Positions 15 through 10,969 of a DNA stretch of 48,261 nucleotides are shown here, one piece after another; position 1 is the first letter of the stretch, and each line of letters opens with the position of its first letter. Source of the stretch: Candidatus Acidiferrales bacterium (lineage in GTDB: Bacteria > Acidobacteriota > Terriglobia > Acidiferrales > UBA7541); the NCBI GenBank assembly GCA_030037315.1, contig JASHRM010000164.1, positions 1-48,261 of the forward strand. The letters run 5' to 3'. Under the pieces are notes generated by a model that did not search any database, was not told the DNA's origin, and saw nothing but the letters and a program-made list of their open reading frames with translations. The position numbers and the translations under genes were made by a program.

Positions 15-1745
15 ATGAACAGACGAAAATTACTCGGCATGCTTGGAATGTCGCCGGTAGCGCTGGCTGGAAGCCGCGCTCTTGCGCTTCCCGCAAAAAA
101 AGTCAAACCCGTCGCTGGCCCCCCGAAAATTGATGTGTTGAACCCGCGGGGCACGCCTCCACCGATCACGTTGATTCCGATGGCAAAGCGCCTCGACACA
201 ATCAACGGAAAAACCATCTACTTGGTTTCCGACGGTTTTCCCGGAGCAGACATATTCCTTGATCAGATCGCGATTTGGTTTAAGAAAAACAACCCCAGCG
301 TCACTACGGTTTACCGGCTGAAGGCCGGCGGGTTCGCCGATGACGACCCGAAATTAATGGCGGAGATAAAGGAAAAGGCCAATGGCGTAATCATGGCCAT
401 TGGGCATTGAAGCACCTGCACGCCAGCGACCGTCGGTCACTGCATGCAGATCGAAAAGATGGGGATTCCCACGGCCCCCATGGTGACGATCGCATTCAAG
501 GATCTCGCCAAGACGAACGCCGCGAAGCGCGGCATGCCCCTGGAACGTATCTGCTTCACCCCGCATCCCGTGTGGGGCAAGACGCCGGAACAGATGTACG
601 CGTATCTCGAGGGTAACGATCCCGTCACCGGCAAGCCGCTGATGAAAGAAGTGATCGGCGCTCTGACGGATCCGCTGACACCTGAAGAAGCAAAGACCGG
701 CACGATCACGCCCCCTACGGGCGCTCCGATCTTTACCGATACCGCAGACAACCTGCAGAGCTATTTCCTGGACAACGGGATGACGGATTTCATGCCGATC
801 ATTTTGCCCACTCGCGAGCGCGTCGATGCGATGCTCAAAGCCACCAGCCACAAGCCAGACGAGGTGGTCGGCAAGATGACTCCCGCGCAAGGGGCTTTCC
901 CGGCGTGGACTTTCACCGTAGAACAGGTTGCCGTCAACGCCGTGATGGCCGGCGCGCTGCCGGAATATTTCCCGACGCTGCTCGCAATCGGCTCAACCGG
1001 CATTTCGGCGCTCTTCAGCTCCACGAACTCGCTCGTCTCCGCGGTAATCGTAAATGGTCCCATTCGCGACAAGTTGCAAATGAACTACGGAATCGGCGCG
1101 ATGGGCCCGTTCAACCAGGCCAATGCGGTCGTCGGCCGCGCGTGGACGCTCATGTCAAAGAACCTCGACGGCGGCGGCGTGGCCGGCGAGACCTATATGG
1201 GCTCGCAGGGTAACGTGATCAACTACAACAACCTGATCATTCCTGAGAATGAGAAGGACAGCCCCTGGGAGCCTTTCCACGTGCAACGGGGCTTTAAGCC
1301 CGACGAAAATGTTCTCAGCTTTTTCTTCGGATTCAACATCACGCAGGGTCAAGGTGGAAAAGGTCTGGGGATGAAACCCATCCCGCACTATGAAGAAGCG
1401 ATGTCGGCCAACGTGGCGCCCTTCGCCTCACTGTTCGGAGCGCTCTTCATTCTCGATCCGTTGGTCGCGCACGGCCTTGGCGACCGGGGCCTAAAGACCA
1501 AGCAGCAAGTCGCTGACTGGCTGCAAAAGAACACCACCGTCACTGTCAAAGATGTCAAGACGATGCTGTTCAGCGGCCTGCCGCGCGGTCCGCAAGCGGC
1601 GAATTTGACGGACGATTCGGTCATACCGAAATGGCCGAACGCGGACGCTTACAACCTCGTCGTCTGCGGCGGACAGACCAACCCGTATCACCAGCTCGCG
1701 AATATGAGCTACCGCGTCAGCGTTTCTGTAGATAAGTGGACGTAG
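15..1745 (+). CDS. UGSC-family exported selenoprotein (TGA at 408-410 read as selenocysteine)
   Basis: One 577-codon frame is interrupted only by TGA at codon 132. Residues before and after it form one family pattern: LNPRG near residue 43, a GADIFLDQIA helix, then GVIMAIGH-U-STC-TPATVGH, followed by EKMGIPTAPMV. This matches the UGSC family, whose hallmark is Sec-x-x-Cys, here U-S-T-C (Sec132, Cys135). The C-terminal half, with IVNGPI, GAMGPFNQANA and SPWEPFHVQRGF, resembles the second domain found in long members of the family. A G-rich Shine-Dalgarno precedes the ATG at 15. The N-terminus (MNRRKLLGML, then an Ala/Leu stretch ending in ALALPA) looks like a twin-arginine signal peptide, so export is inferred. 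The reaction is unknown; a thiol/selenol redox role is inferred from the motif. The alternative is two separate ORFs (15-410 and 444-1745), or a true nonsense mutation. Selenocysteine genes are not in this window. Confidence 0.85.
408..410 (+). other. In-frame UGA, probable selenocysteine codon (Sec132)
   Basis: The TGA sits exactly where UGSC proteins carry Sec or Cys, and the frame on both sides continues the same family alignment. The next codons give S-T-C, so the motif is U-x-x-C. No other stop interrupts the frame from 15 to 1745. Confidence 0.82.
417..448 (+). promoter_or_regulatory. Candidate bacterial SECIS hairpin
   Basis: Six bases after the UGA a stem-loop can form. The arms are TGCA 417-420 with 445-448, CAG 424-426 with CTG 440-442, and GACC 428-431 with GGTC 435-438. 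There is a C/A mismatch at 427/439 and a GTC apical loop at 432-434. Bacterial SECIS elements are coding-region hairpins just after the UGA with a G at the start of the apical loop roughly 16-37 nt downstream; here G432 is 22 nt downstream. The fold was made by eye. Confidence 0.6.
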
Positions 1746-2614: not shown

Positions 2615-4235
2615 TCAGGGCAGTGAGAACGCCATGTAGACGTTGCCCGCGGTCACGAAAATGTATTGCTTGCCATCCACTTCGTAGCTGATCGGATTCG
2701 ACCGCGCGGAGTGGCCCATTTGAATGTTCCAAAGAGGTTTGCCGGTTTCTGCGTCGAGCGCAAAAAAGTTGCCCTCGTCAGTCCCGCTGAAGACCAAACC
2801 ACCTGCGGTGGAAAGCACCGGAACCCAGGCTGGCGAGAGGATCTTGAATTGCCATTTCAATTTGCCGGTAGTCGCTTCGAGCGCTCGAATTGCGCCGTAC
2901 TGCTGTTCGCCAACCAACGCGCGGATTCCGCCCCCACCCACAATTCCTTTTGGCGGCCCCGGCTCGATTTTGCCTGTGCCCTTGATGAAATAAGCCCCCG
3001 TTTCATGGGCGCTCACATAAAAGAGGCCCGTCTGCGGGCTATACGACGGGCTCGTCCAATCCACGCCGCCAGTGATGCTCGGATAAACGAGCGTCCCCGC
3101 GCCTAACGTCGGCTCCTGATTCGGTGCCGGAATGGGACGGCCATTTGTGTCGAGCCCTTTCGCCCATGTCTCCTTCACGAACGGCACGCCCGTCATGAAT
3201 TTTCCCGTGACGCGGTCAATCACGTAGTAAAAGCCGTTGCGATTTGCAAAGCCGATGAGCTTTCTCGGCGTGCCGTCGATCGTCGCATTGAAGAGTACGG
3301 CCGGCTCGCTCGAGTCCCAGTCGTGATCTTCGTGCGGAGAAAATTGGAAGTACCATTTCAGCTTGCCGGTATCCGCATCGAGCGCGATCAGCGAGCACGT
3401 GTAGAGATTGTCGCCGGGCCGATCGTCATCATTAAAATCGGGCGCCGGATTTCCCGTGCCCCAATAAATGAGATTCAAATCCGGATCGTAGGAGCCGTTG
3501 TTCCATGTCGTCGCTCCAGCGCTTTGTGCGGCGCCGTTGCCCCATGTATCGGCTCCAGGCTCGCCGGGGCGTGGCGTCGTCCAAAAACGCCACAGCCGCT
3601 TGCCGGTTTTGGGATCGTAGGCATCAACAAACCCGCGCACTGCCGCTTCGCTGCCGGCGATTCCAACGACCACTTTGTCTTTCAGCGCAAGCGGAGGGCC
3701 GGTCATCGCGTAGCCCATCACGTTATCCGCTACATGCACGTTCCAGCGAACGGCGCCGGTCTTGTCATCAAGCGCGATCAAATGCGCGTCAGCGGTGCCG
3801 ACAAAAAGCGTGTCGCCAAGAATCGCCACGCCTCGGCTCGTCGCATAGAGGCCGATCGAGACGACATGCTCCGGCAATGTCGGCGAGTAACTCCAAATCT
3901 TCAGTCCGCTGCGCACATCGAGCGCCGTCACCGTGCTCGGCGGTTCGGTGATGTACATTACGCCGTCCACCACGATCGGAGACGATTCGAGATTCGCCAC
4001 CGGACGCGACGGCTGATACATCCACGCAATTTTCAAACTTGACACATTCTGCCGGTTGATCTGTTTCAACGAGGAATATTGTTGCGAAAAATAGCTGCCG
4101 CTGTAAGTTAGCCAGTTTTGCGGCTCGCTCTGCGCATGCAGAATGCGTTCGTAGGGGACATCCTGGCTCAGCAATCGAATCGGGCTTAGCAACAACAAAA
4201 CGAACACGGCCCACAGCGCAGTTTTTGTGATTCTC
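2615..4235 (-). CDS. PQQ-dependent alcohol-type dehydrogenase with D-S-S metal-site motif
   Basis: The start codon occupies 4235-4237, so the gene really spans 2615-4237, overlapping the upstream cytochrome gene by four bases (ATGA). The 540-residue protein has a signal peptide followed by an eight-bladed PQQ propeller with many W-x-x-x-x-x and ALD-x-x-TGK repeats. Family landmarks are SEAAVRG (metal-ligand Glu), GTGNPAP (metal-ligand Asn) and HDWDSSEP with catalytic Asp308. The residue two after Asp308 is Ser, not Asp, which argues against the lanthanide (D-Y-D) type. The vicinal Cys pair found beside PQQ in classical methanol dehydrogenases is absent. Periplasmic oxidation of an alcohol or sugar with electrons passed to the adjoining cytochrome c is inferred; the substrate is unknown. 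Confidence 0.85.
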
Positions 4236-5058
4236 ATCGGGCCCCCTTCAAGCTTGCAAGATAAGCGACCAGGTCGTTGACCTGCGGGTCGCTCAACTTG
4301 CCTCTGTAGCTCGGCATCGTGCTTTTGCCGGACTCCTTATCCAATTGGCGCAAATCGGCCTTTTGGAACGACAGGAATTTGCCGGTCGCGTCTTTGATTA
4401 CGATGTGGAATGAATCTTCCGCGGCGCGCGTGCCGTCGTAGGTGTGGCCGTCTTTCGTGACCAAATGAACATATAGATATTCAAGCTGGCCGCCGCTCTC
4501 CAGAAAAGACCGCGCCTGCGGCAGATCCGTTCCCGGGTATAAGACGGCGGTTTTCAAATAGCTGGGGCCGCGCTCCGCGCCGACGTTTGTTAACTCAGGT
4601 CCGGTTCCGCTTCCCTCGCCCGAAATGATGTGGCAGCTCGAACAGCCGCTCGAGTCGTACACAGCTTTGCCTTTCTCCGGATCGCCGGTCACTTTGGCGT
4701 CGTCCACGCGCTTGAGCGAAAGAAGGTATGCCACCAATTGATTGATTTGTGCGTCGTTGAGCTGGCCCGAAAATGCCGGCATTCCTCCGGAAAGCCCGTT
4801 CTTGATCACGTTGATAACGGCGGGCGCACCCAACCTGAATGGAATTCCCTGAATGTTTGGACCCATCGCGCCGCCGCCGTCCAAGCCGTGGCACGTGGAG
4901 CAGCGCACTTCAAATGTCTGTTTGCCCTGGTCGATATCTGCCGGAGTGGGATTCGCGATAGCGGTGTCCTGACGAGGCGAAGACGACGACAGGCTCGGCG
5001 CTAACAGAGAGCAGATAGCAACGCACGCAACTATGCCCAGTCTTCGGAATAGAACCAT
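4234..5058 (-). CDS. Diheme c-type cytochrome, partner of the PQQ dehydrogenase
   Basis: A 274-residue exported protein. The ATG at 5058 is preferred over a GTG at 5094 because a G-rich Shine-Dalgarno (GGGGGGA) lies upstream and a signal peptide begins directly after it. There are two heme sites, CSTCH at residues 53-57 and CSSCH at 139-143. Likely axial Met residues are in GGMPAFSG and STMPSYRG. The C-terminal part (EDSFHIVIKDATGK through LVAYLASLK) resembles the heme-binding domain common in planctomycete and acidobacterial cytochromes. The stop overlaps the start of the following PQQ dehydrogenase gene, so the two are translationally coupled. It probably accepts electrons from that enzyme in the periplasm. 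Confidence 0.9.
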   Translation of the reverse strand: MVLFRRLGIVACVAICSLLAPSLSSSSPRQDTAIANPTPADIDQGKQTFEVRCSTCHGLDGGGAMGPNIQGIPFRLGAPAVINVIKNGLSGGMPAFSGQLNDAQINQLVAYLLSLKRVDDAKVTGDPEKGKAVYDSSGCSSCHIISGEGSGTGPELTNVGAERGPSYLKTAVLYPGTDLPQARSFLESGGQLEYLYVHLVTKDGHTYDGTRAAEDSFHIVIKDATGKFLSFQKADLRQLDKESGKSTMPSYRGKLSDPQVNDLVAYLASLKGAR

Positions 5059-5122
5059 TGCAGTTTTCCCCCCAAACGTGCGATAACGGCTCACGTTCGG
5101 CGCATAGCATACACCGGAATTT

Positions 5123-5145: not shown

Positions 5146-5205
5146 TCACGAGCTTTGCGTCTTTTCTAATTGGGTCAACGGATGACCACCGGGGGGATGC
5201 ACATA

Positions 5206-7044
5206 ATGAATGCGAGAAAGTGTTTTTTTCTGGGTGTGCTGATCGCCGTCTCCGCGTGCGCGGCTTTCGCGCAAACGCGCGTGGACGACAAGGCGCTCAA
5301 GAACGCCGATAAGGATGGGAACGAATGGTTGTCGCCGGGACGCGATTATCATGAGACGCGATACAGTCCGCTTAAGCAGATCGATACAACGAACGTCAGC
5401 AAGATAGGCCTTGCCTGGTATTACGACACGGATTCCGACCGCGGAACCGTTGAGACCACTCCGATTATTTCCAACGGCACGATGTACGCGACGCTGCCGT
5501 GGAGCGTGGTCGTGGCCGTAGATGCGCGCACCGGCAAGGAAAAGTGGCGCTGGGATCCGAAAATCCCGCACATGAATTTCCCTCCGGGTTCCGTTGGCAA
5601 TCCGAATAAAGTCCGCACGGGTCCCAGCGTGTGCTGCGGTCCCGCGAATCGCGGCGTCGCGATTTACGATGGGAAAATCTATGTCGGCACGCTCGATGCG
5701 CGGCTCGTCGCTCTGGATGCGGAAACCGGCAACGTCGTCTGGCAGGTGCAGACAATCTCCGACGCGCAAGACTACAGCATCACCGGCGCGCCGCGCATCG
5801 CTCACGGAAAGGTGATCATCGGAAACGCCGGCGGCGAGTACGGCGTGCGAGGTTTCGCCAGCGCGTATGACGCGGAGACCGGCAAAGAAGTTTGGCGTTT
5901 TTATACCGTGCCGGGTGACCCATCAAAGCCGTTTGAAAATAAAGCGATGGAAGAGGCCGCGAAGACGTGGTCAGGTGATTGGTGGAAGCTGGGCGGCGGC
6001 GGCAACGTATGGGATGGAATTACCTACGATCCCGATCTCAACTTTGTCTATATCGGCGTCGGCCAGGGCGGACCTTGGGTTCAAGGCTTCCGCGATCCCA
6101 AGCGCAACGATAATTTGTATCTCTGCTCGATCGTGGCGCTGAATGCCGACACCGGCAAATTCGAGTGGGCTTTCCAGACCACTCCCGCGGACGAATGGGA
6201 TTATGACGCGACGCAAGGCATGACGCTTGCCGATTTGACCATCGACGGCAAGTTGCGCAAGGTGATCATGCAAGCGCCGAAGAACGGCTACTTCTACGTG
6301 ATCGACCGCAAAACCGGAAAATTCATCTCCGGCGCCCCATACGTCCACGTCACTTGGTCCACAGGACTCGATCCGGTCACTGGACGTCCGCACGAGGCGC
6401 CGAATATGCGTTACGAGAAACAGGAAGTGGACGTTTCTCCGGGTCCCGCGGGCGGGCACGCGTGGCCGGGTATGTCGTTCAATCCCGCGACCGGGCTTGT
6501 CTATCTTCCCGCACTCGACAGCGCGTTCGCATACGTCGCCGAGAAAGAATTCAAGCCCGAGCTTGGCGTGTACAACTGGGGCATCATCCTTCGTCCTGCA
6601 GCGCCGCAGCCGGGTAAGGCTCCGCTGCCTCCGAATCACGCGTTCCTGACGGCATGGAATCCAGTGACGGAGAAAGAGCAGTGGCGGGCCGATGAAATCA
6701 GCGGCGGTGGAACCGTAACGACGGCTGGCAACCTTGTTTTTGCCGGATCGAACGACGGAGAATTCGTCGCTTTCAGCGCCGATAAGGGCGAGAAACTTTG
6801 GTCGGTGAAGTTGCAGCCCGGTCTGGCAAATCCAGCCACGTACATGCTGGATGGGAAGCAATACGTTGCCGTGCTTTCAGGCCGAGGTGGCAAAGCCCGT
6901 ATATATACGTTTGCGCTCGACGGGAATTTGCCGATTCCGGCGCGTCCGGCGGGCACGAATGATTTCTTCGGACCGCCGGGAGGGAACGCGCCAGCACCTG
7001 CTCCGCAGGCGCCGACGCAGCAGAATCAGAACCCGAACCACTAG
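5206..7044 (+). CDS. PQQ-dependent alcohol dehydrogenase with D-Y-D (lanthanide-type) motif
   Basis: A 612-residue protein. The ATG at 5206 is chosen because GGGGGG lies nine bases upstream and a clean signal peptide (CFFLGVLIAVSACAAFAQ) follows; earlier in-frame starts at 5170, 5182 and 5197 are less well placed. It is an eight-bladed PQQ propeller with a vicinal Cys143-Cys144 pair, metal-ligand Glu211 in GGEYGVRG, and DEWDYDATQ with catalytic Asp332 and Asp334. The extra Asp two positions on is the signature of XoxF/PedH-type lanthanide enzymes. One oddity: the usual metal-ligand Asn (GxGN) is Gln287 in GVGQGGPW. The C-terminus is a Pro/Gln-rich tail. Periplasmic alcohol oxidation is inferred. 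It is divergent from the cytochrome operon. Confidence 0.88.
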   Translation: MNARKCFFLGVLIAVSACAAFAQTRVDDKALKNADKDGNEWLSPGRDYHETRYSPLKQIDTTNVSKIGLAWYYDTDSDRGTVETTPIISNGTMYATLPWSVVVAVDARTGKEKWRWDPKIPHMNFPPGSVGNPNKVRTGPSVCCGPANRGVAIYDGKIYVGTLDARLVALDAETGNVVWQVQTISDAQDYSITGAPRIAHGKVIIGNAGGEYGVRGFASAYDAETGKEVWRFYTVPGDPSKPFENKAMEEAAKTWSGDWWKLGGGGNVWDGITYDPDLNFVYIGVGQGGPWVQGFRDPKRNDNLYLCSIVALNADTGKFEWAFQTTPADEWDYDATQGMTLADLTIDGKLRKVIMQAPKNGYFYVIDRKTGKFISGAPYVHVTWSTGLDPVTGRPHEAPNMRYEKQEVDVSPGPAGGHAWPGMSFNPATGLVYLPALDSAFAYVAEKEFKPELGVYNWGIILRPAAPQPGKAPLPPNHAFLTAWNPVTEKEQWRADEISGGGTVTTAGNLVFAGSNDGEFVAFSADKGEKLWSVKLQPGLANPATYMLDGKQYVAVLSGRGGKARIYTFALDGNLPIPARPAGTNDFFGPPGGNAPAPAPQAPTQQNQNPNH

Positions 7045-10039: not shown

Positions 10040-10969
10040 TTACAACAGGACTTTTAGAAATTGCTTCCCAGGTAACTGGCGTACCACGCCTTTGAGTTCC
10101 AAGTCAAATAGGGCATCCAGCACCTCTGAAGAAGTTAAACCCGAGTTTTCCACCAGTTCATCCACGTGACGTGCCTCATCCAGGCTTAATAGCGCGTATA
10201 AGGGCTTCTCGTTTGGCCCCAAAGCCTCCATCGTCAACGAAACTCGCTCCTCCTGCGAGGCCTCTTCCACCGGCATCAATTCGGCCCGGACCGGAGTCGG
10301 CAGCTCTTCAACCACGTCCTCCCAGCCCGTCACCAGCTCGGCGCCCTGTTTGATGAGCTGATTAGGTCCAAAGCTTCCGGCTTGGGTCGCGTTCCCTGGG
10401 ACTCCATAAACTTCTCGGCCAAACTCCATGGCCAGCCGCGCGTCTTCGGATAGACGACATCGATTCCGCCGTTCACGCCGTTCAGGGCGCCCGGGTGTGC
10501 GCTGGCGCCGATCCCTCGGGCTAAACCGCTTGCTATCACCGCCCCTCGCAGCTGGGTCCCGTGCCAGCCTCTCAGCCATTTGATTCCCGGAAGGCGACCG
10601 ACGACGCGCCCCTGCGATGAAACGATGTGGTTATTGAGAAGTCTTGTATTTCCTTTGACATATAGGAGCGGCGGTGGATCCGGGATCTCGCGCAGCCTCG
10701 AAGGGTATTCTGCCTTGTCCCATGTGAGCAGACGGCACCCCGCAACTTGCGTCTGAGCCAGCTCCTTCGCGGCGTCGCTCAACCGGCGGCGCGAATGGAT
10801 TGCTTGCGCGACAGCAGCTGGCACTCTTTGCGCCTCGAGGGCTGTAAGCGACGCGCTGAAAATGGCGTCCGGGCTGCCGAACTCACGCAATGGCTTACCC
10901 GCCGTGCGCGCTCCCAGACCTGGAGTTAAAGCCAGGCGCCAGCCAGCCGACATACTCGTCGGGATGCAT
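10040..10969 (-). pseudogene. dprA: dprA pseudogene (DNA processing protein A), frameshifted and internally deleted
   Basis: DprA loads RecA on incoming single-stranded DNA. Its pieces appear here in alternating frames. An N-terminal part reads from about 10969 (MHPDEYVGW, then LALTPGLGART one frame over). Next come MAERLARD in one frame and AVIASGLARGI, SAHPGALNG and GIDVVYPK in the other. The C-terminal part LAMEFGREVYGVPGN and FGPNQLIKQGAELVT follows, with a winged-helix-like end (SSEVLDALFDLELKG). The Rossmann segment between VYPK and RLAMEFG is missing, including the conserved NFPxRNRIIS motif. At least three frame changes plus a deletion of roughly 50-60 codons make it nonfunctional unless the assembly is faulty. 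It sits directly upstream of topA. Confidence 0.85.

Follow-up and report, generated by a model that had tools for sequence, protein, structure and literature searches.

What does a TGA codon inside an otherwise open reading frame signify? The window (the whole stretch of DNA that was analysed, 48,261 nt) belongs to a Candidatus Acidiferrales metagenome-assembled genome (MAG) of 3.68 Mb that is 82.6% complete. Read as an ORF, the gene starts with an ATG at 15-17, meets an in-frame TGA at 408-410 and ends with a TAG at 1743-1745. When the TGA is translated as a residue it is the only internal one, at residue 132 in the sequence GHUSTC (residues 130-135). Standard calling does split the gene, as the initial annotation had foreseen, into ORFs of 131 aa (15-410) and 433 aa (444-1745, from the ATG at 444). 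The features of the locus, with what each assignment draws on, are as follows:

15-1745, + strand: predicted UGSC-family selenoprotein gene, two domains, 576 aa, selenocysteine (Sec) at residue 132 (frame, Pfam, alignment, model)
15-86, + strand: predicted twin-arginine (Tat) signal peptide, MNRRKLLGMLGMSPVALAGSRALA (sequence; RR in homologs)
132-599, + strand: UGSC (Sec) domain, residues 40-195, putative distant homolog of the GrdB/PrdB Sec domain (Pfam, model, profile comparison)
408-410, + strand: TGA, almost certainly decoded as Sec, opening a U-S-T-C redox motif (frame and homologs)
424-442, + strand: SECIS-like hairpin, seven pairs and one mismatch, loop GUC at 432-434 (constraint, pairing contrast)
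687-1742, + strand: C-terminal domain, residues 225-576, about 350 residues (Pfam, fold searches, a fusion in a related genome)

Decoding of the in-frame UGA

The two sides of the TGA belong to one family: Pfam UGSC (PF24696) gives a single match that bridges the stop (residues 40-195, 88.1 bits, 9.9e-25, curated cut-off 25 bits), and the same family is matched by all 42 aligned homologs. Read-through translation confirms that the stop is the U of a U-x-x-C motif, here U-S-T-C. The window protein thus carries the U/C-x-x-C motif of the UGSC family and lacks the literal U-G-S-C, which is found in one paralog (L054) and its relatives; other paralogs have U-G-G-C, U-D-G-C, U-H-G-C and further variants. 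Against the NCBIfam UGSC equivalog model (NF041046) it scores 75.6 bits, below the curated cut-off of 125, and by these scores it is a divergent, fused branch of UGSC, not an NF041046 equivalog.

An extended set comprises 73 homologous frames whose Sec column is either U or C, a few overlapping loci among them; 67 have TGA and six have Cys, the six Cys rows being four distinct family genes, one duplicate and one unrelated thioredoxin-like frame. The window gene's counterpart in another MAG (88% identical) has TGA at the identical codon, and three Cys paralogs in the host genome, uninterrupted and of equal length, place Cys exactly at the TGA position. The Cys forms (L002/L042, L003 and L008) occupy three separate positions among the Sec forms in the tree. 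The host genome also encodes tRNA-Sec (62.9 bits, anticodon TCA), SelA (554 bits), SelB (377 bits) and SelD (366 bits), all above their family cut-offs. The checks on relatives and on the genome that the initial annotation had proposed are thereby answered: relatives have TGA or Cys at residue 132, and selA, selB, selD and tRNA-Sec are all present. The paralog expansion, the recurrent neighbours and the GrdB link described below go beyond that annotation. Together with the conserved hairpin after the UGA, these comparisons support its selenocysteine reading, and insertion of Sec at 408-410 is as good as certain.

The locus is very unlikely to encode two proteins, an exported 131-aa fragment and a 433-aa product started at ATG 444. 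Both frames are open, but the split would cut a single Pfam domain, M144 lies within a helix and is unconserved, and the Cys paralogs have the same length with no interruption.

The hairpin, with sequence CAG-C-GACC-GUC-GGUC-A-CUG, spans 14-32 nt downstream of the UGA, and 21 nt separate the UGA from the loop. Among conserved degenerate codons of 39 Sec genes of the window gene's class, third-base diversity is 0.12 in codons 134-146 and 0.48 elsewhere (permutation p 5e-5), and the gene's lowest-diversity stretches of 13 codons start at codons 127-138. Each of the seven pairs is kept in 92-100% of 36 Sec genes. The pair +19/+27 is A-U in all 36 of them and A-C in all four Cys genes; the pair +15/+31 is lost in two of the four Cys genes and has undergone an A-U to U-A double change in one Sec gene. 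The pairing losses in Cys genes result mostly from synonymous changes. Constraint, combined with loss of pairing in the Cys paralogs, is as expected of a bacterial SECIS element, and this comparative pattern strongly supports such a role. The folding energy of the window gene's hairpin is not lower than that of synonymous shuffles (z -0.2), and the energy test is not significant for the U-S-T-C class. The diverged classes U-D-G-C, U-H-G-C, U-P-G-C and U-G-S-C have other sequences with a GU-loop hairpin 14-21 nt after the UGA; such a hairpin occurs in nearly all Sec classes, in a search limited to GU-containing loops, and is a sign of consistency, not proof. An Rfam scan of the window gave no match.

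That a Cys gene has acquired the TGA by nonsense mutation, or only seems to have it through a sequencing error, is less probable still. The sequence is a MAG assembly and the gene lies close to the contig edge, but TGA recurs in dozens of homologs from independent genomes, Cys is the sole alternative at the Sec column and the hairpin is constrained, so that such an event is ruled out for practical purposes. Decoding of the UGA independently of the Sec machinery, whether through general suppression or by insertion of a different amino acid, is an equally negligible prospect. Nothing was found in its favour, the machinery is complete in the host genome, Cys is the alternative residue, and the hairpin is conserved alongside UGA but not where the codon is one for Cys. 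It is very likely that a full-length, Tat-exported UGSC selenoprotein is made: SelB and Sec-tRNA (anticodon UCA) would decode the UGA, with the downstream hairpin as their guide.

Architecture and spread of the family

Export, which the initial annotation had also claimed, is supported by the N-terminus: a twin-arginine signal (MNRRKLL...ALA) is present in 32 of the 34 homologs that have this region, and by motif it comprises the twin arginines, a hydrophobic stretch and an AxA-like cleavage site. The signal-peptide region has low confidence in the AlphaFold2 model, and the protein is quite likely exported. The model (pLDDT 88.7) has two domains, with Sec132 between a strand (124-130) and a helix (135-148) of a flavodoxin/Rossmann-like alpha/beta domain. 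Thioredoxin-fold selenoproteins (Prx/Trx-like) share the Sec-x-x-Cys redox motif but differ from this modelled fold, as does the thioredoxin-like fold that was proposed for UGSC in 2008 (PMC2398784). Foldseek/VIA searches with the whole model returned generic alpha/beta folds only (residues 61-225), uninformative on function, the best row being a chain of an MCR activation complex (Z 10.6, rmsd 5.0); a sequence search of the PDB with the family profile had no match at E 10.

A more specific relation emerges around the Sec residue, where NCBIfam GrdB/PrdB models match weakly in about a quarter of the members. The hhalign comparison with a profile built from the phylum's own GrdB and GrdB-like selenoproteins gives a probability of 93.5% and a score of 54.5 with Sec aligned on Sec, U being written as C on both sides and the E-value covering one comparison; among the controls, 30 column shuffles reach 20.9 at most, the reversed profile scores 18.9 and the C-terminal domain 16.0. 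Over about 70 aligned residues U-x-x-C falls on U-x-x-C, and Sec is followed by the same helix and then an IEx-GIP turn. This supports homology between the UGSC Sec domain and that of GrdB/PrdB (selenoprotein B of glycine, betaine, sarcosine and D-proline reductases), over these roughly 70 residues only. The window protein is nevertheless exported by prediction, has another second domain and scores 11-13 bits with TIGR01917/TIGR01918, against cut-offs of 65-602; by these scores it would be a distant relative at most, and not a member of the GrdB/PrdB family. Full-length GrdB-type selenoproteins do occur in Acidobacteriota, with two matches in each of two genomes (L117 and L118, in G171 and G414).

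No Pfam family matches the C-terminal domain, and a fold search with this domain alone found no match at Z >=5; Toblerone/YjgF-type and fumarate hydratase rows were weak and are not taken as evidence. A genome of the same genus (G010) encodes this domain as a fusion with a thioredoxin-like domain (L041, 803-2961, - strand), and a stand-alone 174-aa UGSC selenoprotein adjoins the fusion gene. A fused UGSC protein with TGA, 46% identical, is encoded in a deltaproteobacterial (Myxococcota) MAG (L113, 1742-3445), so the two-domain form also exists outside Acidobacteriota.

The UGSC selenoprotein family (PF24696/NF041046) was described by Zhang and Gladyshev in 2008, its function uncharacterised, and the same paper reported, from marine metagenomes, a UGSC protein fused to the conserved domain 'Unknown_1' (PMC2398784). 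The window protein shares with that family the Pfam domain, Sec in U-x-x-C and the existence of Cys homologs, and differs in its U-S-T-C motif, Tat signal and C-terminal domain of about 350 residues; its lineage differs in having 5-20 matches per genome. A 2026 review lists UGSC among uncharacterised selenoproteins and leaves Acidobacteria unmentioned (PMC13188914). As far as the literature searched shows, the multi-copy expansion, Tat export, the Sec/Cys contrast in the SECIS, the PQQ/aromatic context and the relation to GrdB are new.

The host genome has 12 paralogs, nine with Sec (one in-frame TGA each) and three with Cys. UGSC matches are found in 14 of 41 genomes searched (host included), with exactly one TGA in nearly all full-length matches; the named relatives are Candidatus Acidiferrales/Terriglobia MAGs recovered from palsa, from soil and from sites of that kind. 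Across the phylum, 41 of 396 sampled genomes have matches, including a second expanded lineage (family f38, genus g62: G076, G124, G152, G161 and others), whose genomes each have at least eight scored matches, and as many as 46 candidates at first look; most of these are fusions and contain TGA. Missing Sec machinery was rejected as the explanation for UGSC absence: SelA is present in most UGSC-less relatives. Some individual loci stand out. A dense UGSC selenoprotein cluster of about 25 kb (L063, 3722-19570, and L064, on G013:C200) has the motifs U-G-S-C, U-S-Y-C, U-P-G-C, U-H-G-C, U-E-A-C and U-N-G-C. A small contig (G000:C71, L047, 185-5729) holds three tandem paralogs, two Cys and one Sec, a natural Sec/Cys comparison. 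In one Cys paralog (L042, 1501-3231) C-S-T-Y replaces C-S-T-C, and the resolving Cys is lost.

Selenoprotein-rich bacteria are reported to be mainly anaerobes, the largest number being 39 genes in Syntrophobacter (PMC9312934). Here, a single family accounts for nine selenoprotein genes in one soil acidobacterium whose genome is incomplete, and for up to 20 matches in a relative. Standard annotation would split nearly all of them.

Genomic neighbours and possible function

Downstream of the gene, the window contains genes of types that neighbourhood comparison brings into view:

2615-4237, - strand: PQQ-dependent alcohol dehydrogenase, a recurrent neighbour of the family
4234-5094, - strand: cytochrome c, paired with the PQQ dehydrogenase of 2615-4237
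5170-7044, + strand: second PQQ-dependent dehydrogenase

Recurrent neighbours of UGSC genes are pairs of PQQ dehydrogenase (PQQ-DH) and cytochrome c, a LigM/DesA O-demethylase, a LigK aldolase, an acyl-CoA synthetase and a MetE-like protein. In the host genome, eight of 24 PQQ-DH matches lie <=4 kb from a UGSC gene, against 0.42 expected (p 5e-9), and the PQQ-DH neighbours carry CCGP, with vicinal Cys-Cys. Of 20 genomes in the genus, 12 show the UGSC expansion; each of these has 23-33 PQQ-DH matches, together with a LigM/DesA-type O-demethylase that scores over the cut-off, and the eight without the expansion have 0-4 PQQ-DH matches and no LigM over the cut-off. This co-occurrence may reflect a single clade-level event. 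Outside the genus, genomes without a match to the window protein have many PQQ-DH (G031, G034 and G036) or LigM (G023, G024 and G034), so the link to UGSC is not obligatory. A literature search for selenoprotein together with PQQ and lignin, or for Acidiferrales and aromatic, found nothing relevant.

The UGSC protein is likely a selenol redox enzyme. In the model, the Sec-x-x-Cys pair is placed between strand and helix of the flavodoxin-like domain. In the proposed mechanism, a periplasmic selenolate would attack or reduce a small-molecule substrate, Cys135 would resolve the intermediate as a selenenyl-sulfide and a thiol donor would then recycle the enzyme. The substrates would probably lie among the oxidised alcohols and methoxylated aromatics that the adjacent PQQ dehydrogenases and O-demethylation genes handle, and would differ from one paralog to the next. 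Comparison shows the recoded UGA, the redox motif and the domain relations; export, the selenolate chemistry with Cys135 and the choice of substrates are inferred. A place in PQQ/aromatic pathways is put forward tentatively, as something short of an even chance. It is possible, if doubtful, that the Sec protein instead acts in the periplasm on proteins or peroxides, as a thiol-disulfide oxidoreductase or a peroxidase with PQQ dehydrogenase maturation as one conceivable task, and not in small-molecule catabolism: the Sec-x-x-Cys motif, the thioredoxin-like fusion of the C-terminal domain beside a stand-alone UGSC gene and the CCGP of the PQQ-DH neighbours are consistent with such a role, but at least 12 diverse paralogs per genome, and a second domain that is both large and conserved, point to a range of substrates and not to a single maturation task, and the relation to GrdB also speaks against it. 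Nucleophilic reductive cleavage of the GrdB type in place of plain thiol-disulfide chemistry is rather unlikely. The most specific version is a long shot: a large class of exported, lineage-expanded selenoenzymes with a GrdB-like Sec domain would, with PQQ dehydrogenases in the periplasm of soil acidobacteria, reductively cleave or convert oxidised lignin-derived aromatics, as a selenium-based analogue of the ether cleavage carried out by glutathione-dependent enzymes. The links to PQQ dehydrogenases, aromatic O-demethylation and GrdB/PrdB provide a testable proposal for UGSC function, and soil carbon turnover and selenium may be tied through these enzymes.

Elsewhere in the window, a DprA gene (10040-10953, - strand) appears to be split into the overlapping frames 10330-10953 and 10040-10579, by a frameshift or an assembly error.
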